The notes under the pieces were generated by a model, which was not told the origin of the DNA, did not search any database, and saw only the letters and a list, made by a program, of their open reading frames with translations. DNA of 21,558 bases from a virus. The stretch covers positions 1 to 21,558 of the IMG/VR virus record IMGVR_UViG_3300032224_000874. One strand, written 5' to 3'. Numbering within the stretch: position 1 is the first letter of the stretch; each line of letters starts with the position of its first letter. The position numbers were made by a program, and so were the translations under genes. Positions 2,461 to 17,786 of this stretch are shown here, one piece after another.

Positions 2461-3408
2461 ATGGCGACAGTAATAAGATTCACTGAACCTTATGTAGCTA
2501 CAAGCAAGTTCTACAACGGCGTACCAGTAGACCGTACGGCAACAGGTTCTGGACTTGGAACACAGACATCCACCGGTCTGCATGTATCTCTACGCACTGC
2601 AACTGGTTCTGGAACTGGAACACAAACAGCAGTAGGTGCAAGAGTTAAGCAGGTAACTGCTACTGGTTCTGGAGCTGGAACAACCAATGGTGGAGCAACA
2701 AAGTTGCACATATCTCCACGTACTGCAACCGGTTCTGGAACGGGAACACAAACAGGAATTGGCGCAAGGTTAAACGCTAAAACTGCTAGTGGGTTTGGAA
2801 CCGGAACAAATAATGGCGGAGCATCTCGCCTTATTACTCGTTATAGATCCGGAAGCACGTCAGCAGGAACCGGATCTTCGTCTTCTTTTAAGATCATAAT
2901 TGGAATTAGATATGCAACAGGTTCTGGGGCTGGATCGCAGACATCCATTGGTTTGCATGTATCTCCACGTACTGCAACTGGATCTGGAGTTGGATCTCAA
3001 TCTGTAATAAGTTTCTCAACAAGGTTTAGAACAGCAACTGGATCTGGTTCATCTAGCCAAGCTTCAAATGGTCTGCATACTTCTCCAAGAAACGCAACTG
3101 GATCTGGGCTTGGTGTGACTGGTGGCGATGCAGTCTGGATAAAGTCTCACATCTTCCGTGTTCCAAATACAACTAATTATTCATGGGCTGAACTTTTTAA
3201 CGATAACCCAAGAGACAGAATTTTCTCACACCTTTCACAAGGAATAAGAGTAGAGAACTTGTATCGCCTGTCTGACGGATCATATACAATTAATGACCCG
3301 GGTTACGGTCGTTCAACGAGACAGTACCTTGGTGGTCATAACATATTCCTAAGTGACGAAGAGATAACCGAACTGACTGCAGCTGGATACGGAGCATACA
3401 TATCGTGA
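2461..3408 (+). CDS. Repeat-rich fibre-like structural protein
   Basis: This encodes 315 residues in three parts. Residues 1-25 (VIRFTEPYVATSKFYNGVPVD) form a lead peptide that is also found, in variant form, at the start of the 619-residue tail protein at 5362. Residues 26-220 are about ten copies of a 20-residue unit whose core is TATGSGxGTQ, with partners such as TGLHVSxR between. Two units are diverged (ASGFG near 109, RSGSTSAGTG near 129). Residues 222-315 form a non-repeated C-terminal domain (WIKSHIFRVPNTTNYSWAELF to the end) with LSDEEITELTAAGYGAY at its close. A Gly/Ser/Thr repeat of this kind suggests an extended beta rod, and I recall similar TATGSGTG repeats in actinophage virion proteins. 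It is probably a fibre or appendage; the exact attachment is unknown. Confidence 0.65.
   Translation: MATVIRFTEPYVATSKFYNGVPVDRTATGSGLGTQTSTGLHVSLRTATGSGTGTQTAVGARVKQVTATGSGAGTTNGGATKLHISPRTATGSGTGTQTGIGARLNAKTASGFGTGTNNGGASRLITRYRSGSTSAGTGSSSSFKIIIGIRYATGSGAGSQTSIGLHVSPRTATGSGVGSQSVISFSTRFRTATGSGSSSQASNGLHTSPRNATGSGLGVTGGDAVWIKSHIFRVPNTTNYSWAELFNDNPRDRIFSHLSQGIRVENLYRLSDGSYTINDPGYGRSTRQYLGGHNIFLSDEEITELTAAGYGAYIS
2536..3120 (+). repeat. Tandem 60-bp coding repeats (20-residue TATGSG units)
   Basis: Units recur at about 60-bp spacing, marked by variants of GCAACTGGTTCTGGA. Codon choice drifts along the array, from GGTTCT-type units early to GGATCTGG-type units late, which suggests old duplications followed by divergence or local conversion. 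Residue starts of ATGSG are 27, 47, 67, 89, 152, 172, 192 and 212, with two degenerate units between. Confidence 0.85.
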
Positions 3409-3674
3409 TTCACCAACAGACTCATCCAACCCTAGATGTAGAAGGATGCTTTGCCTGTCGTGTTTCAGGGATTCGTATGGGTATGAATACCACAACAACG
3501 CGTGGTCAGAATGTTGCATCTATCAACAACACTGAGCGTAACTGGCAGAAAGATATGCCGGCTTATAAGCGTTTACGTAAAGAAGGTCTACAACCAAAGC
3601 GCATCGATGGTGCTGCCGAGGTTGAGAAAAAAGCAGAAACAAAATTTCAAGTAGAGACTGGAATAGGAATATGA
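3405..3674 (+). CDS. Small hypothetical phage protein with CFAC motif
   Basis: This encodes 89 residues from GTG 3405, overlapping the previous stop as GTGA. The start region HPTLDVEGCFACRVSGIRMG contains one CxxC pair. It continues with a central TTRGQNVASINNTERNWQKDMPAYKRLRKEGLQPKRIDGAAEVEKKAETKFQVETG. I recall this pattern (HPTxxVxGCFxCKxxxI, then LxxDxxAYKRLRxxGLQPxxIDG) in small actinophage proteins encoded near structural genes; none has a function I can name. The CxxC alone is not enough for a complete zinc site, so two copies or a partner would be needed for metal binding. It is the first of four small genes joined by overlapping stop and start codons. Confidence 0.7.
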   Translation: MIHQQTHPTLDVEGCFACRVSGIRMGMNTTTTRGQNVASINNTERNWQKDMPAYKRLRKEGLQPKRIDGAAEVEKKAETKFQVETGIGI

Positions 3675-3829
3675 AAAAGAAGACAGACAAGATGGGCAAA
3701 GTAATGCATGAGTTCAAGGGTGGAACACTCAAGTCCTCATCTGGCAAGAAGGTCACATCACGTAAGCAAGCTATTGCTATTGGTATGTCAGAGCAAGCTG
3801 CTGCAGCCAAAAAGAAAAAGAAGAAGTAA
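3671..3829 (+). CDS. Small basic protein, DUF6496-like
   Basis: This encodes 52 residues. It starts at ATG 3671 inside an ATGA overlap with the preceding stop and ends at TAA 3827-3829. The core KVMHEFKGGTLKSSSGKKVTSRKQAIAIGMSEQA matches the pattern I know as DUF6496 (KVMHEFKxGxLKSxxGKKVxxRKQAxAIxxSEA), common in phages and some bacteria. Both ends are lysine runs (MKKKTDK and AAAAKKKKKK), making the protein highly basic. A nucleic-acid or capsid-associated role is plausible but unproven. The position inside a run of four overlapping genes implies coupled translation. Confidence 0.75.
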   Translation: MKKKTDKMGKVMHEFKGGTLKSSSGKKVTSRKQAIAIGMSEQAAAAKKKKKK

Positions 3830-4212
3830 TGGCTGCTGAAGTTATCAATGGTTGTCCTGCAGCAACGCAGGATATTACGGTCAACCTGAAGAACAGGCAG
3901 ACCTGCATTGATAAAGCTAACTATGGTCCAATGAACCCGAAACTTTCAAACCAGGACTTCTGGAACAAGAAAGCTGCAATGTTTAAGACCACTTCTGACG
4001 TGGCAAAGACTGCACGTTGCAAGAACTGTGCTGCATTTGTCCAGACTCCAAAGATGATTTCATGTATTGAGAAAGGTCTTGGGAATGAACCCGGCAATGT
4101 GGCAGCAGATATTGTCGACAAAGCAAACCTTGGTTACTGTGAGATCTTTGACTTTAAGTGTGCAGGAGATCGCACTTGCGATGCTTGGGTTACAGGAGGA
4201 CCAATCAAATGA
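3829..4212 (+). CDS. Cysteine-rich phage protein, possible metal or Fe-S binder
   Basis: This encodes 127 residues; the start shares its A with the preceding TAA (TAATG). Eight cysteines are at 9, 26, 64, 67, 79, 104, 111 and 117. The C-terminal half has the layout RCKNCAAF, ISC, GYCEIFDFKC, RTCDAWVTGGPI. I recall the same layout (CxxCxxF, then GYCxxxxFKCxxxRTCDxW) in many marine and freshwater phage proteins of unknown function, some compared with high-potential iron-sulfur proteins. The spacing here is not the classic HiPIP one, so I only claim a conserved Cys-rich domain. It belongs to the four-gene overlapping run. Confidence 0.7.
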   Translation: MAAEVINGCPAATQDITVNLKNRQTCIDKANYGPMNPKLSNQDFWNKKAAMFKTTSDVAKTARCKNCAAFVQTPKMISCIEKGLGNEPGNVAADIVDKANLGYCEIFDFKCAGDRTCDAWVTGGPIK

Positions 4213-4460
4213 CAATTGAATACAGGGGCGAAAAGTTTGCTGGTTACAATAAACCAAAGAAAACTCCAGGTGCCTCAAAGTCTCATGCTGTCCTAGCCAA
4301 AGATGGAGACAAAGTCAAACTCATCAGGTTCGGACAACAAGGAGTTCAAGGCTCACCAGATGGCACAGCCCGAAACAAGGCATTCAAAGCACGCCACGCA
4401 AAGAACATCGCAAAGGGCAAGATGTTTCCAGCTTATTGGGCAAACAAGGTTAAATGGTAA
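4209..4460 (+). CDS. Small basic hypothetical phage protein (KAFKARH motif)
   Basis: This encodes 83 residues starting MTIEYRGEKFAGYNKPKKTPG at an ATGA overlap with the preceding stop. An upstream in-frame ATG at 4158 lies inside the previous gene and is less likely. The body KSHAVLAKDGDKVKLIRFGQQGVQGSP, then ARNKAFKARHAKN and a closing YWANKVKW, follows a layout I know from many phage proteins (KSHAVLAKxGxxxKxIRFGxQ, then RKSFRARHxC, then YWSCxxW). Those often have cysteines where this one has N and N, so any metal site is missing here. Strongly basic; function unknown. Confidence 0.7.
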   Translation: MTIEYRGEKFAGYNKPKKTPGASKSHAVLAKDGDKVKLIRFGQQGVQGSPDGTARNKAFKARHAKNIAKGKMFPAYWANKVKW

Positions 4461-4470
4461 GATTTAACAA

Positions 4471-5358
4471 ATGACTACAGCTGCAACTCTTATAGATAGG
4501 ACGTTGCGCCAACTTCTATCCGGTACGGTTGAGGCGCGCAACAAGCTCGCCACCACCATTAACTCATCTGCGACAAGTGTCACAACAACGTACGCACTTG
4601 AGTCTCTTCGTGCTGGTCAGGTATTTGAGATTGAGTCAGAGATGTTCTATATCTGGGAAGCTGATTCCGCAAGCAAGACGCTTACCGTGCAGCGTGGATA
4701 CAACGGCACCACTGCTGCCGCTCACACTGCAGGAGCGATCATCACAGCCAGCCCTCGTTTCCCTCGCGCTCAGGTTCTTGAGGCAATCAATGACGAGCTG
4801 ATGGATCTGTCATCCCCAATGAATGGACTGTTTCAGGTTAAAACGCTTGACTACACCTATAACGGAAACGATAGAATGATTAACCTTACTGGCGTAACGA
4901 GCATGATTGACCTTCTTGGGGTTTCTGTTCGCTACCAAAACGACGACTATCCAGTCGCACGAAAGGTTAAACTTGTTCGCGATCTTCCCACTGACGACTT
5001 TGCTTCTGGCTTTGCTATCAAGTTTGACCAGAACGTATATCCGGGACGACTACGCATCGTGTACAAAGCTGCATATAGTGGCGCAACCAGCGAATCTACC
5101 GACATCAACTCAACATGTGGTGTGCAGGAGTCAATCACAGACATTGTCACTATTGGCACTCAAATTCGTTTAATGGCCCCACGCGAGGTAAAGCGAAACT
5201 TTACCGAATCACAGGGCGATACCCGTCGCGCCGAAGAAGTTGGAGCTGGTGCAATTACAGCTTCAATATCCAACCTAAAGCAGCTTCGCAAAGATCGAAT
5301 CACAGCGGAGGCAGCACGACTAGCTAGGGCATACCCAACGTTCTTAACACGGGAGTAA
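4471..5358 (+). CDS. Head-tail connector/neck-like structural protein
   Basis: This encodes 295 residues. After a short helix (MTTAATLIDRTLRQLL) comes a beta module (about residues 25-95) that ends in LTVQRGYNGTTAAAHTAGAII, the same module seen at the same residue positions in the fibre protein at 7230. From about 96 a helical start (FPRAQVLEAINDELMDL) leads into a domain of mixed strands with a Tyr-rich core, and the end is helical and charged (LKQLRKDRITAEAARLARAYPTFLTRE). A helix ARAQVLEAINDEL behind such a module, placed between head and tail genes, recalls connector or adaptor proteins of short-tailed phages. No enzyme motif is visible. It ends 3 nt before the next start, so the two are probably co-translated. 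Confidence 0.6.
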   Translation: MTTAATLIDRTLRQLLSGTVEARNKLATTINSSATSVTTTYALESLRAGQVFEIESEMFYIWEADSASKTLTVQRGYNGTTAAAHTAGAIITASPRFPRAQVLEAINDELMDLSSPMNGLFQVKTLDYTYNGNDRMINLTGVTSMIDLLGVSVRYQNDDYPVARKVKLVRDLPTDDFASGFAIKFDQNVYPGRLRIVYKAAYSGATSESTDINSTCGVQESITDIVTIGTQIRLMAPREVKRNFTESQGDTRRAEEVGAGAITASISNLKQLRKDRITAEAARLARAYPTFLTRE

Positions 5359-5361
5359 GCC

Positions 5362-7221
5362 GTGGTCGGCCTGCTCGCGTTTACAGAACCTTTTGTAGAC
5401 ACCAATCCATTCTTTACAGGAAAGCCGCTTAACAACTTGGTACCAGACATCTTCCCAGTAGCGATTGACGGACGGCCATACTTGGTTGATCAGAAGTCAA
5501 ATCAGTTCTCACGTGGGTTTGAGGCGCGCGTACGCGACTCTGTAGACCAGTCAACAGCTCCAGGCGAAGCAGCTATCAACCCGCAGGGTTTGTGGCGACG
5601 TGGTGAAACATCGTGGCATTTGGGCGCAGGACAGCTGTATGCTGATACCGCAGAGGCACAGGACTATAGGTTTTATTCCAGCAAGGGTATTAACCCGTGG
5701 ACTAAGGGTCAGCTTAAACTTCTAAACAAGGTAAAAGAATCCCTTAGCTCAGCTAACACCAACCTCGGTTTGCATGTTGCTGACGGCAAGGTGTACGTGT
5801 CTGACGGGTCTACCATCAAGTACTCATCTAACCCATTTGATTCTTCACCAACATGGACCTCGGTAACCGGTCTTCCTGCATTAACTCCTCGTGACATGGC
5901 TTCAGACGGAAGCAACATTTATTTGACATACGCAGGCACCACGGCTTCGTTTGGACTGTGGAAGATTAACGATGCACAGGTTGCATCAAACGTTGCGTAT
6001 GGCCACCAGCTTTACTACGTTGATTTTGTAAAGGGATACGTAATGGTGTCTGGAAACAGTACATCCGGAAATGCTACGGATCTTTATTACAGCCCAACAG
6101 GAAACATTGGTGCTGATGATTACTCGCATCCACTAACAACCTGGAACTGGACAAGTTTTGCTTCTGGACAAAACGCCATCTATGTGGCTGGATACAGTGG
6201 AGACCGTGGTGCTATCTACAAGATAACCATTGCAAGTACTGGTGTTCTTGATACCCCAGTTGTAGCACTTGAGTTCCCAACGGGAGAAATACCAAAAACC
6301 GTTTTTGGATACCTTGGCGGAATCTTCATTGGAACAAGCAAGGGTGTGCGTTATGCAACGACTGACGCTGACTCAAACCTTACTTCTGGTTCTTTGATCC
6401 CTGTGTCCGGTGGGGTTACTGCATTCACGGCTGATGACAAGTACGTATGGTTTAACTGGTCCAACTATGACGGTGTGTCTACCGGCCTTGGTCGCATTGA
6501 CCTGTCTTCGTTTACCTCACCTAACACTCCGGCATATGCAACAGATCTGATGCTTACATCCACAGCAAATGTCAACAATGTAATTACGTACGACAACAAG
6601 CGGATCTTCTCGGTATCTGGAGATGGCGTGTACGTGGAGGACACAGCCAACCTGGTCGAGACTGGCGAGATAGTTACCGGCACATACCGATGGGGAATCC
6701 CTGACCGTAAGTTCGTTGCAAAGTTTGACTTGCGGACAACCCCACTTGAGGGAACCGTTACCCCATCTGTATCTCTTGACTCTGGTAGCTACACGGCAAT
6801 GTCCGCTGCTGTACTACAGGCATCCACCGAAAAGGTATCTACTGGACCTCAGACAAAGTTCATAGAAGCAAAGTTCAAGCTAGAGCTAGCTAGGTACAGC
6901 GCGACTAATGGGCCTACCGTCACACGTTGGATGGCTCGTGCGTATGCGTCCCCTGCTCGCAGTCAGGTGTTCCGTGTGCCATTGCTTATGCATCATAAGA
7001 TTCTGGACAACCATGGATCAGAGCATTACTTTGACGTTGAGGCTGAACTACAGGCGTTGCGAAATCTAGTGACAAACCCTGTAGTGGTAAACTATCAGGA
7101 AAATACCGAAACATTTTCGGTGGTTGTCGAGGACCTAGAGTTTCAGGTTGTCGATGGCTACAATCAAAACTGGGACCTAGAAGGAACCTGTATTGTAACA
7201 ATGCGTTCGGTACAAGATTAG
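5362..7221 (+). CDS. Large tail protein with propeller-like repeats
   Basis: This encodes 619 residues from GTG 5362, with GGGAG at 5351-5355. It begins LLAFTEPFVDTNPFFTGKPL, matching the lead peptide of the repeat fibre at 2461. Residues about 110-410 show recurring strand patterns such as GLHVADGKVYVSDGSTIKYS, DMASDGSNIYLTYAG, GQNAIYVAGYSGDRGAIYKI and VTAFTADDKYVWFNWSNYDG. These read as beta-propeller blades (hydrophobic strand, Asp/Gly turn, YV or IY). The end (residues about 520-619) has VFRVPLLMHHKILDNHGSEHYFDVEAELQALRNL and VVVEDLEFQVVDG, a domain I recall from actinophage minor tail proteins. A propeller-type nozzle as in T7-like tails is a plausible role. The propeller is inferred from strand pattern only. 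Confidence 0.6.
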   Translation: MVGLLAFTEPFVDTNPFFTGKPLNNLVPDIFPVAIDGRPYLVDQKSNQFSRGFEARVRDSVDQSTAPGEAAINPQGLWRRGETSWHLGAGQLYADTAEAQDYRFYSSKGINPWTKGQLKLLNKVKESLSSANTNLGLHVADGKVYVSDGSTIKYSSNPFDSSPTWTSVTGLPALTPRDMASDGSNIYLTYAGTTASFGLWKINDAQVASNVAYGHQLYYVDFVKGYVMVSGNSTSGNATDLYYSPTGNIGADDYSHPLTTWNWTSFASGQNAIYVAGYSGDRGAIYKITIASTGVLDTPVVALEFPTGEIPKTVFGYLGGIFIGTSKGVRYATTDADSNLTSGSLIPVSGGVTAFTADDKYVWFNWSNYDGVSTGLGRIDLSSFTSPNTPAYATDLMLTSTANVNNVITYDNKRIFSVSGDGVYVEDTANLVETGEIVTGTYRWGIPDRKFVAKFDLRTTPLEGTVTPSVSLDSGSYTAMSAAVLQASTEKVSTGPQTKFIEAKFKLELARYSATNGPTVTRWMARAYASPARSQVFRVPLLMHHKILDNHGSEHYFDVEAELQALRNLVTNPVVVNYQENTETFSVVVEDLEFQVVDGYNQNWDLEGTCIVTMRSVQD

Positions 7222-7229
7222 GAGAATAA

Positions 7230-7994
7230 ATGCCATACGCAACTAGGAGATCGTATTCGGGTTCAGCGCCAACGTGCACCCTCACGTCTTCAATCACGTC
7301 TGGTGACACAACTGCTAGTTTGACTGGAACTGTAACCAACTGGCCAGCAACAGCCAACGGTCCTTTCTACATGGTTATTGATCCGGGTCTTGCAAGCGAA
7401 GAGAAGGTACTCGTAGCTGCTCGCACCACAACATCTCTATCAAGCATTACCCGTGGTATTGATGGAACTACAGCTTCATCTCACTCAGCTGGAGCAATTT
7501 GCTACCCAGTATTTACTGCTACGGATGCGGATCAAGCTAACCTTATTGCCTCAGCGTTGACTACAAAAGGTGACACTCTTGTAACTGATGGATCAACCAT
7601 TACTCGTCTTGCAGTTGGTGCAGATAGAAAAGTTCTTACTGCAGACTCAACAACAACGTATGGAGAAGTTTGGAACTATCCATCTGATTTAACACTAAAT
7701 GCTCAGACCGGAACCACCTACACACTTGCACTTACCGACAGCGGGAAATTTGTAACTTGTTCAAATGCTGGTGCAATTACAGTAACCATACCCCTTAACT
7801 CTTCTGTTGCGTTTCCAACTGGATCTCAGGTAAACATTCTTCAACTTGGAGCTGGACAGGTTACATTTAGTCCGACTGGTGGAGTAACAATGTACGCTCA
7901 AGGAAGCAAAACAAAAACATTTGGTCAATACTCGGTTGCAACCCTCGTAAAGATTGCTTCAGATACGTGGGTGCTCTGCGGAAACATTGCATAG
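7230..7994 (+). CDS. Tail fibre/virion protein with GTTA-H-AGA module
   Basis: This encodes 254 residues with AGGAG 6 nt upstream. The N-terminal module (about 15-95) closes SITRGIDGTTASSHSAGAI, matching the connector-like protein at 4471. The middle has ALTTKGDTLVTDGSTITRLAVGADRKVLTADSTTTYGEVW (about 109-148), a link common in phage fibres (KGDLLVGxGxxxxxRLxVGxxGxVLTADSxxxxGxxW). The last 90 residues form a beta domain (GKFVTCSNAGAITVTIP, FPTGSQVNILQLGAGQVTF) with the standard ending ASDTWVLCGNIA. Its stop is an amber codon in the same frame as the next gene, with only TTT between the amber and the next ATG. It is probably part of the receptor-binding apparatus. Confidence 0.7.
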   Translation: MPYATRRSYSGSAPTCTLTSSITSGDTTASLTGTVTNWPATANGPFYMVIDPGLASEEKVLVAARTTTSLSSITRGIDGTTASSHSAGAICYPVFTATDADQANLIASALTTKGDTLVTDGSTITRLAVGADRKVLTADSTTTYGEVWNYPSDLTLNAQTGTTYTLALTDSGKFVTCSNAGAITVTIPLNSSVAFPTGSQVNILQLGAGQVTFSPTGGVTMYAQGSKTKTFGQYSVATLVKIASDTWVLCGNIA

Positions 7995-7997
7995 TTT

Positions 7998-9302
7998 ATG
8001 CAAATTCTTGCTCAAGGTCCATACGGTGGGCCACCAACAACAGCTCCAACATCTTTAAGTGCTGTACCAACAAACGTTGATGTAGCTATTTCATTTACTG
8101 CACCATCCAATGATGGTGGTTTGACAATAACAAACTACGAGTACTCGTTTAATAACTCAACATGGACTGCTCTTTCCCCAGCTGATGCTATTACACCAGT
8201 CACTGTTGGTGGTTTAACACAAAACACCGGGTACACCGTATACCTTAGAGCAGTAAACGCTGCTGGTTCAGGCCCAGCATCTACTGGTGTTTCGTTTACA
8301 ACTGCTGGGGTTCCAACTGGAACAGCAACAATCAGTTCAGTTACTGTTGGAACAACAACAGCTACGGTTACATTCTCAGTAGCAGCTGGTGGCGGTGCGA
8401 TAACTGGGTATGATCTGTATGTTGCCAACCAAACAAATGCTTGGAACAATACAACGGCAAGTCCAATATCTGTTACTGGACTAACCTCAAACAGCTATTA
8501 CGTTTTTTATGTAAGAGCAAAAAATGCTTATGGTGTTGGTCCACAATCAGCTGGTGTTGGTGCTACAACAAACCCAACATTTATTGTTGCATCAGGTGGA
8601 TCAACTGTTGACTACGTAAGTGGTTCATACACGTATAGAGCTCATACGTTTACTGGATCAAGCACATTTACAATTAGTAGTGCCGGTTCATTCCCAACTG
8701 TTGATGTTCTCATTGTAGCTGGAGGTGGCGGCGGTGCAGGAGATAGAGGTTCTGGTGGTGGTGGAGGTGGTTTCCGTCAACTTTCATCTCAGTCTATTTC
8801 TGCAACTTCATACACTGTTACCGTTGGCGGTGGTGGTTCTGCTTGTGGAACTTGGAACGCAGGTGGAGGATCTGGTGGGAACTCACAGTTTGGTGGATTG
8901 TTCTCCACTGGAGGCGGTGGTGCCGATCAGTTTTATGGTGGTGCAAAAAAAACTGGTGGGTCAGGTGGGGGTACTAGATATTCTCCAGCTGCAGCAGGAA
9001 ACATTGGTGGATACAGTCCAGTAGAAGGTTATTCCGGTGGTGTTCATAACACATGGGGTGGTGGTGGAGGCGGTGCTGGTAGTGCTGGACTAGTAAACAC
9101 ATATCCTGCAAACTCTGCTGGTGGTTCTGGTGCATATAATGCTTGGGGAAATAACAGTAACGAGTATTTTTCACCAGGTGGAAATAACCATACTAGTGGG
9201 ACTTCAGTAAATGGATACTACGGTGGTGGTGGAAAGGGTGTTAATCCAGGAGGACAAGCAGGAGCACAAGGAAAAGTTGTAGTCAGGTACAGGATTTCAT
9301 AA
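7998..9302 (+). CDS. Adhesin-like tail fibre: two FN3 domains plus glycine-rich tip
   Basis: This encodes 434 residues. FN3 domain 1 spans about 16-103 (APTSLSAVPTNVDVAISFTAP, ending YTVYLRAVNAAGSGPAS). FN3 domain 2 spans about 106-191 (ending YYVFYVRAKNAYGVGPQS). A linker with TYRAHTFTGSSTFTIS leads to VDVLIVAGGGGGAGD and a C-terminal domain made largely of Gly runs with Ser, Asn and Tyr, closing GKVVVRYRIS. FN3 pairs followed by a glycine-rich domain of the LIVAGGGGG type are typical of phage fibre tips and of surface-binding proteins. ATG 7998 has no convincing Shine-Dalgarno site (only CGGAAA about 13 nt away) and lies one codon past an in-frame amber, so re-initiation or readthrough from the previous gene is likely. 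Confidence 0.8.
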   Translation: MQILAQGPYGGPPTTAPTSLSAVPTNVDVAISFTAPSNDGGLTITNYEYSFNNSTWTALSPADAITPVTVGGLTQNTGYTVYLRAVNAAGSGPASTGVSFTTAGVPTGTATISSVTVGTTTATVTFSVAAGGGAITGYDLYVANQTNAWNNTTASPISVTGLTSNSYYVFYVRAKNAYGVGPQSAGVGATTNPTFIVASGGSTVDYVSGSYTYRAHTFTGSSTFTISSAGSFPTVDVLIVAGGGGGAGDRGSGGGGGGFRQLSSQSISATSYTVTVGGGGSACGTWNAGGGSGGNSQFGGLFSTGGGGADQFYGGAKKTGGSGGGTRYSPAAAGNIGGYSPVEGYSGGVHNTWGGGGGGAGSAGLVNTYPANSAGGSGAYNAWGNNSNEYFSPGGNNHTSGTSVNGYYGGGGKGVNPGGQAGAQGKVVVRYRIS

Positions 9303-9670
9303 TGGCAACATTTGCTCGATTAGATGAAAACAATGTCGTTATTGATGTAATAAAAGTTAGCAACGAAGATTGCGCTGGTGGTAATTTTCCATCCTCAGAA
9401 TCTATAGGACAAGAATTTATTAAGTCAATTGGTCTTGAGGGAAACTGGATTCAAACATCTGTATCAGCTGAATTTAGGGGAAAACATGCTGGAATAGGTG
9501 ATAAGTATTCTCCAACACTTGATGCGTTTGTACCGGATTATGGATCTACAAAACCATACCCATCATGGATTCAAAGAGATGGGGAAGTTGGTTGGTTCCC
9601 ACCTGTTCGTATTCCAGATGTAGAAGGCTGGTGGCAATGGGATGAGGAAGCAGGAGAATGGACTCGTTAA
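9302..9670 (+). CDS. Hypothetical tail-associated protein
   Basis: This encodes 122 residues whose ATG shares its A with the TAA of the fibre gene (TAATG). The sequence runs MATFARLDENNVVIDVIKVSNEDCAGG, then GQEFIKSIGLEGNWIQTSVSAEFRGKHAGIGDKYSPTLDAFVP, then PYPSWIQRDGEVGWFPPVRIP and ends WWQWDEEAGEWTR. I recall this exact layout (ATFAxLDENNxVxxVxxV, GxWxQTSxxxxFRxxxAGIGxxYDxxxDAFxP, PxPSWxLxxxxxxWxxPxxxP, YxWDExxxxW) in many phages of aquatic bacteria, always near tail fibre genes. No function is established to my knowledge; a fibre chaperone or small tail component is the natural guess. Confidence 0.75.
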   Translation: MATFARLDENNVVIDVIKVSNEDCAGGNFPSSESIGQEFIKSIGLEGNWIQTSVSAEFRGKHAGIGDKYSPTLDAFVPDYGSTKPYPSWIQRDGEVGWFPPVRIPDVEGWWQWDEEAGEWTR

Positions 9671-10203
9671 TACATTGTTCTTTTCCAAGGTCGGGTAATA
9701 ATTATCTTCAAGCAATACTGGAAAAAGCTCTTCCACATTCAAATCCTATTTGGTTGATGCATAGGATTAAAGACCTTACTATAAACAACAATGTAGTAAG
9801 CATCATAAGAAACCCTCTTGACTGTGTCCCGTCTTGGACTGCGTTCAACCCGGAAAAACGAGATGGTATGGAGGAAAGAAATCTTGAATGGTACATCGCA
9901 TACTGTAAAACGTACAAAGAAAATTTAGGAAAGATACTTGTCCTTTCTTTTGAACAATTAATTTCTAATCCGATCAAATGCTTAGATAAAATATCTAATC
10001 AATATGGATATGAACCACCGTTGTTTTCTACAAAAGAAGACCTTGACAAACAGTTCGATAACGATTCAAATTTTATTGGCAGAACACCAGATGATATCAG
10101 GGAAACTTTTGCATCAATAAAAGAAATCACAATGTCGTCCCCTTCATTCAATCAGGCAAACGAATTGTTTATGGAAATAAATGAGCAAGTTAAAATTCAA
10201 TAG
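9658..10203 (+). CDS. Sulfotransferase-family protein (short)
   Basis: This encodes 181 residues whose start overlaps the previous gene by 13 nt; GAGGAAG at 9644-9650 is 7 nt upstream. Residues 8-18 (SFPRSGNNYLQ) match the 5'-phosphosulfate loop of PAPS-dependent sulfotransferases (PRSGNTWL). Residues 46-60 (VVSIIRNPLDCVPSW) match the 3'-phosphate-binding motif (RNPxDxxxS). Later, KILVLSFEQLISNPIKCLDKI fits the conserved 'vlxYExLxxdPxxxlxxI' helix region. Between them LMHRIKDL may hold the catalytic His. At 181 residues it is shorter than usual family members (roughly 250-300), so only the core fold is present. The gene is clearly A+T-richer than its neighbours (many AAA, AAT, ATA, AGA codons), a sign of recent transfer. 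The substrate, perhaps a surface glycan or fibre, is unknown. Confidence 0.8.
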   Translation: MDSLIHCSFPRSGNNYLQAILEKALPHSNPIWLMHRIKDLTINNNVVSIIRNPLDCVPSWTAFNPEKRDGMEERNLEWYIAYCKTYKENLGKILVLSFEQLISNPIKCLDKISNQYGYEPPLFSTKEDLDKQFDNDSNFIGRTPDDIRETFASIKEITMSSPSFNQANELFMEINEQVKIQ

Positions 10204-11608
10204 CAGATGGTTAATACTTGTTCCAGCTATTGGGTTTGCGTTATTTGCTAAACCAGCTAAAGCCGATGTTCTTGGTGACTGGACATTTAGCCAGTCCAAA
10301 AACTGTGGTGGATCTGTTGAGGTAGTTAACAACACTATTATTCTTCACGGTCCAGATAACAATGGTTGTTCTGGTCAAGCTCACTGGGTAAAGATCGAAA
10401 CAACTGTCCCTGCTGGTGTGAACACAGTTGACTTTACATGGTCATATCAAACCAACGATGCACCGTATTATGACCCGCCACAGTATGCGGTAAACGGTGC
10501 GTACGTGATGCTCGGAACAATGTGGCAGCAAACTCAAAGTGGGTCAGCATCTATTTCTGTCCAAGAAGGTGATGTGTTTACGTTTCGTCAGTACTCAATT
10601 GACACCTGTTGTGCCCCCGGTCATCTGACTATTGCTAACCTTTCTCTATGGGAATTTACAACAACATCCACGACTTCAACGACGACTACTACTACTACTG
10701 TCCCGTCAACGACTGTCCCTGCCATAGTCCCGACTACTACGACAGTTCCAGAAACTACGACAACAAGTACGACTACTACAACCTCGTCGACGACAAGTAC
10801 TACAACGACAAGTACAACGGTGGTTTTACCGGATACCTCAACTAGTTCTTCTTCCGTACCCCAAACAACATTGCCAGAATTAGTACCGACCACGACACTA
10901 CTGCCAGAAATTCCAACATTTATACCTCCTCAAATATACGAGCCAGAACCGACTGAGCTTTCCGTTCCTGAAGAGATCGTTGAAGTACCGACAGGCACCA
11001 CAACGACAGTAGTAGAGGAGCCCATCCAAGAGGAGATGCCTCTCGAAGAAACAACCACAACAACTGAGCTAGTTCCAGAAACATATCCTGATACTACCGA
11101 GGAAACTACTACTTCCACAACAGCTCCAGATTTAGTATCAAATTTAGATCCAGATGTTCCGTTGACCGACGATCAAGTTACATCAATAATTGAGCAAGCT
11201 GAAAGCGCTGAGGCCCTTGTTGCGATTCTTGAACAGCTTGCACCCGAACAAGTAGCGCAAGTTGTTGATCAGATCCTTGCCGATGAACCGACGCAGGAGC
11301 AGGCAATAGCGCTTGCTACATCTCCCGAGGTGCTTGCTGCAGTTAGCGGTGAGCAGGCAGCCCAGATCTTTGAAGCTCTCGATGTTGCAGAACTTAGCGA
11401 CGCACAGACAGAACAGCTGATTGCTGCAGTACAGGGCGCTTCAGCTGAGGTGCGATCTAGTTTTGAAGACAAGATCGATATCTTCAAGAATGCCCTTGAC
11501 ACCTACGTACCGCTTGGATCAAACATTCCAGTGGGTACAAGGCGCACATTGATTGCCGTAACTGTGGGGATAACCCTCGCGGCAGCAGGTACTAGAATTA
11601 GACGTTAA
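10181..11608 (+). CDS. Secreted, Thr-stalked, membrane-anchored surface protein
   Basis: This encodes 475 residues; the start overlaps the sulfotransferase gene by 23 nt. Residues 1-28 form a signal peptide (basic start, hydrophobic LILVPAIGFALFA, AKA cleavage site). Residues 29-158 look like a beta-sandwich domain with four cysteines (42, 63, 143, 144). Residues 160-315 are a Thr/Ser/Pro stalk (long Thr runs, VPxTTVP, ETTTT), then an acidic Pro/Glu part. Residues 325-435 are helical with repeated LxxEQ patterns (LTDDQV, LAPEQV, LSDAQT). Residues 456-470 (TLIAVTVGITLAAAG) form a likely transmembrane segment followed by RIRR. Such Thr stalks are common in actinobacterial exported proteins. It lies between the sulfotransferase and the holins, so it probably acts on the infected cell envelope rather than in the virion; this is inference. 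Confidence 0.7.
   Translation: MSKLKFNSRWLILVPAIGFALFAKPAKADVLGDWTFSQSKNCGGSVEVVNNTIILHGPDNNGCSGQAHWVKIETTVPAGVNTVDFTWSYQTNDAPYYDPPQYAVNGAYVMLGTMWQQTQSGSASISVQEGDVFTFRQYSIDTCCAPGHLTIANLSLWEFTTTSTTSTTTTTTTVPSTTVPAIVPTTTTVPETTTTSTTTTTSSTTSTTTTSTTVVLPDTSTSSSSVPQTTLPELVPTTTLLPEIPTFIPPQIYEPEPTELSVPEEIVEVPTGTTTTVVEEPIQEEMPLEETTTTTELVPETYPDTTEETTTSTTAPDLVSNLDPDVPLTDDQVTSIIEQAESAEALVAILEQLAPEQVAQVVDQILADEPTQEQAIALATSPEVLAAVSGEQAAQIFEALDVAELSDAQTEQLIAAVQGASAEVRSSFEDKIDIFKNALDTYVPLGSNIPVGTRRTLIAVTVGITLAAAGTRIRR
10658..10830 (+). repeat. Low-complexity ACG/ACT/ACA tract encoding the Thr stalk
   Basis: The segment is almost entirely threonine triplets mixed with TCC/TCG/AGT serine codons. It is short-period and impure, so it also opens spurious frames on both strands (long Val runs in reverse, Tyr/Asp runs in another + frame). 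Such tracts commonly change length by slippage. Confidence 0.8.
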
Positions 11609-17483: not shown

Positions 17484-17786
17484 ATGGCAAATGAGAAACG
17501 AAGGGAAGTTTCGATGGACATTCTTAATGAATGGAATCTAACCAATCAGAGGTTCGATTGGATGGATGAAGCAAGGTGCAAAGGGATGACACACATGTTC
17601 TTCCCGGAGCAAGGCGATGAAAACAATTATGTAGAAAGAGCTAAAGCTGTGTGCGCTACATGTTCAGTCAAGGATGACTGTCTTCAGTTTGCATTGGACA
17701 ACTGTTTCGTCTACGGTATTTGGGGTGGCATGAGCGCACGCCAACGCAAGACACACAAGGCGCAACTACGAAGGGCAAGACGATGA
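17484..17786 (+). CDS. WhiB-like iron-sulfur transcription factor
   Basis: This encodes 100 residues. Four cysteines in WhiB order (C32, C57, C60, C66; CxxC then 5 residues to the last) would hold a 4Fe-4S cluster. WMDEARCKG, FFPEQGD, ERAKAVCATC and the GIWGG turn (78-82) followed by basic SARQRKTHKAQLRRARR complete the signature. WhiB proteins are restricted to Actinobacteria and their phages, where they bind sigma factors and adjust host or phage transcription. Start: ATG 17484 has GAGGA only 3 nt away; ATG 17514 (MDILNEW) has AAGGGAAG 5 nt away and is a real alternative giving 90 residues. It stops in an ATGA overlap with the next gene. Confidence 0.93.
   Translation: MANEKRREVSMDILNEWNLTNQRFDWMDEARCKGMTHMFFPEQGDENNYVERAKAVCATCSVKDDCLQFALDNCFVYGIWGGMSARQRKTHKAQLRRARR

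Follow-up and report, generated by a model that had tools for sequence, protein, structure and literature searches.

The question raised by this locus is what a sulfotransferase-like gene is doing among the tail and lysis genes of a phage. The window, which is the whole stretch of DNA analysed, is a linear viral record of 21,558 bp from IMG/VR. The gene at 9658–10203 (+) had been identified from the sequence as an open reading frame of 181 aa, and it is borne out as a real reading frame. The motifs that had been named in it are placed correctly, with PRSGNNYL at residues 10–17, RNPLDCVPSW at residues 51–60 and FEQLISNP from residue 98, and the gene does lie with the tail tip on one side and the lysis genes on the other. 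Rfam and tRNA searches found no matches.

The original prediction of a PAPS-sulfotransferase fold is upheld by the sequence, by an AlphaFold2 model and by motif conservation, with the PAPS pocket judged from its residues. The protein matches PF00685 (Sulfotransfer_1) with an E-value of 1.7e-6 and 28.1 bits against a curated cut-off of 22, while its match to PF13469 (Sulfotransfer_3), at 23.6 bits, is below the curated cut-off of 27. Most of the short relatives, taken singly, are under the PF00685 cut-off. SULT structures are also recovered with a profile built from the family (7d1x, E=1.5e-6). The AlphaFold2 model of the 181-aa protein, made with 13 relatives as input, has a pLDDT of 89.4 and a pTM of 0.85. 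In the model and its Foldseek matches there is a predicted central sheet, with the strand-loop-helix and strand-turn-helix of a PAPS site. The best PDB match is 2h8k (SULT1C3 with PAP; E=5.7e-5, prob 1.00), and 50 of the 50 matches listed are PAPS sulfotransferases or members of the superfamily (retinol dehydratase), which argues against placement in an unrelated P-loop family. The viral fold search is likewise led by sulfotransferases, the best match being BFVD A0A6J5S636 (161 aa, TM 0.78/0.86). TM-scores against the SULTs are moderate, about 0.4–0.6, because the segment from the PAPS loop to the His is short, at about 20 residues where the SULTs have about 60. The 181-aa protein belongs to the PAPS-sulfotransferase superfamily and is probably a minimal enzyme attaching sulfate groups.

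Relatives of this protein are not readily found. None were identified in PHROG, NCBIfam or phage records at the sensitivity used, by tblastn against 50,697 phage records, or when phages and viral contigs were scanned with the single protein. Family members were instead found via their neighbours, and then through alignments, giving 41 clusters after dereplication at 90% identity. R11, H35, R51, P53, S59 and F98 are invariant in all 41, yet identity between members is only about 20–40%. The retention of R11, H35, R51 and S59 despite this divergence argues for retained PAPS chemistry. The PAPS-binding (5'-phosphosulfate) loop is SFPRSGNNYL, residues 8–17 (9679–9708, +), in which Arg11 replaces the usual Lys. 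This Arg of the PRSGN segment is present in 41/41 clusters, with a conservation of 0.90 for P10, 0.88 for S12, 0.93 for N14 and 0.83 for G13, where the rest have Ala. The mycobacterial Stf0 likewise has Arg at the basic position of its PAPS loop (PMC11625862). His35 stands where region II begins, in the sequence WLMHRI (codon at 9760–9762, +), and by analogy is presumed to be the catalytic base (PMC4199319). The 3'-phosphate motif RNPLDCVPS, residues 51–59 (9808–9834, +), conforms to the RxxxDxxxS consensus of PF00685 (PMC11625862); D55 has a conservation of 0.76, with Glu in seven of the other clusters. The GxxGxxK PAPS motif of region IV is absent from the window protein, and residues at about 140–144 are not conserved across the 41 clusters. 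The protein is therefore placed in the superfamily only, and not as a cytosolic SULT.

The gene had also been described as A+T-rich and of foreign composition. Its GC content of 34.4% is indeed low against a mean of 47.7% (SD 3.6) for the 31 other genes (z -3.7). In codon usage it departs from the phage more than all 67 length-matched pieces do, but its GC3 is unremarkable and lies inside the spread (z -1.1). The composition is thus foreign numerically, but this does not demonstrate recent transfer. A low GC content, of 24–38%, was found in 15 of the 15 homologues checked, in phages or loci of 40–50% GC, indicating that the low GC of the gene is mostly due to the amino-acid make-up of the family. 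It is a lasting family trait, largely amino-acid driven, and dates no transfer. A cellular donor was sought with one pattern scan across 84,980 genomes; it gave three weak matches only, and no donor was found. Pairwise dN/dS between close relatives is 0.08–0.36 (for some of the pairs, dS is close to saturated) and shows that purifying selection acts on the sulfotransferase in these relatives. The nearest matches to the major capsid protein, at about 40%, are in Streptomyces phages, and a WhiB-type regulator (17484–17786) adjoins the gene for an SLT-like lysozyme. These features suggest that the host is likely to be actinobacterial.

The sulfotransferase gene had been thought to be a single-gene insertion. 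Instead, a whole adhesin cassette, with approximate limits of 7619–10207 from the blastn breakpoints, has been swapped. Homology with six relatives (L002, L003, L005, L007, L009 and L039) ends at 7594–7663 and restarts at 10201–10256. With L006 and L008 it runs further, to 8,414 and 8,836. Both flanks have about 73–84% nucleotide identity in these eight relatives, with none across about 7,620–10,205. On the left, the cassette begins within the gene for a structural protein (7230–7994, +), of which the N-terminal ~148 aa are conserved and the C-terminus is exchanged in most relatives. This is followed by the exchanged gene for a 434-aa tip protein (7998–9302, +) with fn3 (1.3e-16) and Gly_rich_2 (6.9e-12) domains, presumed to be the receptor-binding adhesin. 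The right flank is the gene for a conserved Thr-rich protein (10181–11608, +), which overlaps the sulfotransferase gene by 23 nt. This protein has no family match; it appears to have a signal at the N-terminus, ahead of a long mucin-like run of Thr, Ser and Pro and, at the C-terminus, a membrane-like segment, and is possibly a surface or lysis protein. Elsewhere in the window, 2461–3408 contains degenerate TATGSGxGxQT repeats that vary in length and sequence between relatives. Its identity is 42–46% in most relatives, against >80% for several neighbours, and it is a second variable structural gene.

The cassettes contain the C-terminus of the structural protein, the Gly-rich tip protein, usually a phrog_7759 protein and an optional enzyme. 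The enzyme slot holds the short sulfotransferase in the window and in L003. In L009 it holds a longer Sulfotransfer_3 protein (8918–9625) followed by a 2OG-Fe(II) oxygenase (9622–10182), in L039 a 2OG-Fe(II) oxygenase-like protein below the cut-off (2754–3413), and in L006 a 242-aa protein that matches neither Pfam nor NCBIfam (8451–9179); in L002, L005 and L007 it is empty. Closely related phages therefore differ in the presence, absence and kind of enzyme. In L009 and L081, a slot of this kind is filled by independent longer sulfotransferases. Proteins of ~240 aa, grouped by eye, recur in the adhesin cassettes (L006:8451–9179, L071:4881–5600, L072:4797–5528 and L085:6600–7322) and often adjoin a sulfotransferase or a 2OG-Fe(II) oxygenase. 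The L052 cassette has two different short sulfotransferases (3699–4253 and 4958–5557) with a 241-aa gene between them.

Directly 5' of the sulfotransferase gene in the window is a gene for a tail-tip associated protein of 122 aa from the phrog_7759 family (9302–9670, +; E=5.6e-27), for which the AlphaFold2 model has a pLDDT of 92.3. The stop of this gene and the start of the sulfotransferase gene overlap by 13 nt (9658–9670, +). In other phages the two proteins are fused. Across the family, phrog_7759 is fused to or directly upstream of the sulfotransferase in 31 of the 41 clusters, compared with 7 of 452 other genes at the same loci, and is absent from this adjacency in the remaining 10. Nine of these clusters have the fusion as one open reading frame and 22 have phrog_7759 directly upstream, 11 of them with an overlap of exactly 13 nt and 11 with other spacing. 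The 11 clusters with the 13-nt overlap, including that of the window, form one clade (support 98/93), and the tree indicates at least two origins of the fusion. Some loci (L022, L023, L029 and L024) were found with phrog_7759 as the query and are hence biased; most clusters came from sulfotransferase queries and are unbiased. The adjacency could reflect shared cassette membership only. That phrog_7759 is a known tail-fibre chaperone was considered and rejected, as sequence and PDB fold searches gave no significant match, the best informative fold match being to the fiber of cyanophage Pam3 (E=1.3, prob 0.47).

A sulfotransferase requires PAPS, and an APS-kinase-like gene lies just downstream of the sulfotransferase gene in many distant relatives (PF01583, 63 bits; PAPSS1 kinase domain, E=1e-13). 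The encoded protein is a fusion to an HxGH nucleotidyltransferase, its C-terminal half resembling NMN adenylyltransferase and not ATP sulfurylase. A phage module for PAPS supply, made up of the sulfotransferase and an APS kinase, was rejected on a control: only 5 of the 80 best APS-kinase-like loci in viral contigs have a sulfotransferase nearby. The gene is widespread and seldom near a sulfotransferase, and the link is therefore not used as evidence. In Clavibacter phage 33, for example, the APS-kinase-like gene is near a MagZ-like pyrophosphatase, with no sulfotransferase nearby. The fusion itself, of about 250 aa (L022:5608–6366 and L055:6555–7307), is highly conserved and has at least 543 relatives in viral contigs. 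A search for an APS kinase in the window and in contigs of the 13-nt group, up to 43.9 kb long and most of them possibly fragments, gave none.

The best explanation of these observations, put forward at a little below even confidence, is that the gene encodes a minimal PAPS sulfotransferase which is part of an exchangeable receptor-binding cassette, is translated in a coupled manner, sulfates the phage's own tip complex and so tunes receptor binding. Translation of the sulfotransferase would be coupled to that of phrog_7759 and the Gly-rich tip protein. As the phage group yielded no APS kinase, the PAPS would be host-derived, and a hydroxyl on the tip complex, either on phrog_7759 or on the Gly-rich adhesin, would be O-sulfated. 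The added negative charge would then shift the receptor binding of the tip, and hence adsorption. The invariant residues point to the PAPS-dependent activity, and the coupling of translation and the phrog_7759 fusions suggest that the tip complex is the acceptor. A host surface glycan or a phage glycoprotein had been proposed as the substrate, with an effect on adsorption that may follow from either; given the adhesin cassette and the fusions with phrog_7759, a role at the tail tip is more likely than could have been known at that time. A Tyr-rich tip was considered as a signature of the acceptor and rejected, as the Tyr content of tip proteins is 4.0% next to a sulfotransferase and 3.5% without one (p=0.13). 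The acceptor therefore has no visible signature, and tip composition favours neither tip nor host-glycan sulfation.

The main rival to tip sulfation is that, within the infected cell, the enzyme adds sulfate to a glycan of the host surface or to another molecule of the envelope and so alters the receptor, leading to superinfection exclusion or allowing progeny to avoid re-adsorption to debris. The enzyme would then travel with the adhesin as both must match one receptor. This is somewhat less likely than tip sulfation, but the fold and motif evidence fits it equally well, and the joint exchange of enzyme and adhesin is in keeping with a match to one receptor. In S-SRM01, moreover, a nucleotide-sugar epimerase and a glycosyltransferase accompany the annotated sulfotransferase, an indication that some phage sulfotransferases, at least, act on glycans. 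Against this, no glycan-synthesis genes are recognised in the cassette of the window, and direct fusion to phrog_7759 in nine clusters is more natural for a domain that acts at, or is carried on, the tip.

Fusion to a presumed virion-associated protein would also fit a domain that has lost sulfate transfer and is kept as a structural or binding part of the tip, for example for sulfated or phosphorylated ligands, as would the minimal size and the lack of the GxxGxxK region. Such a loss is improbable in light of the four residues R11, H35, R51 and S59, which are invariant in 41/41 clusters at such low identity. An unrelated P-loop protein that merely resembles sulfotransferases is more improbable still, to the point of being discounted; the single-sequence scores of some relatives are weak (PF00685 E=0.11 for L003 and no match for L029), but the window protein is above the Pfam cut-off and the profile, PDB and viral fold searches are all led by sulfotransferases.

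If tip sulfation is correct, then a receptor-binding tip is modified by an enzyme encoded in its own cassette, which would add a second layer of host-range variation besides sequence. A broader interpretation, possible but held with less assurance, is that there is a dedicated class of minimal phage sulfotransferases that sulfate their own receptor-binding tip and travel with, or are fused to, a tip accessory protein, so that adhesin chemistry is exchanged along with adhesin sequence. The family is tied to a defined place, the adhesin cassette, and to a fixed partner, the overlapping or fused phrog_7759. This gives a short list of acceptors, and the role of phage sulfotransferases becomes testable through the adhesin-cassette setting of the gene.

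Compared with the SULTs of PF00685 (SULT1C3, 2h8k; plant SOT16, 8k9y), the window protein has the same fold, PAPS loop, catalytic-type His and RxxxDxxxS motif, but it is 181 aa rather than about 300, has a shorter segment between the PAPS loop and the His, has Arg for Lys in the loop and lacks the GxxGxxK region. Sulfotransferases are known from phage genomes, where their function has been called unclear (PMC10580990). Those of PF13469, in Synechococcus phage S-SRM01 and OM43-type phage genomes (PMC10580990), are likewise a phage-borne PAPS-sulfotransferase family; the window gene is much shorter, forms a separate group and is below the PF13469 cut-off. The T2/S16-type gp38 tail-fibre adhesins are alike in kind only, as a Gly-rich, hypervariable and modularly exchanged tip, and the sections of that account available describe no enzyme gene as part of the adhesin (PMC6630733). 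No paper on tail-linked phage sulfotransferases was found in the literature searched. A further likeness is BFVD A0A6J5S636, from an uncultured Caudovirales phage and itself uncharacterized, which has the full-length short fold at 30% identity. As far as the literature and databases searched show, this minimal and separate group of sulfotransferases, bound to an adhesin cassette and repeatedly fused to a small accessory protein, is new.
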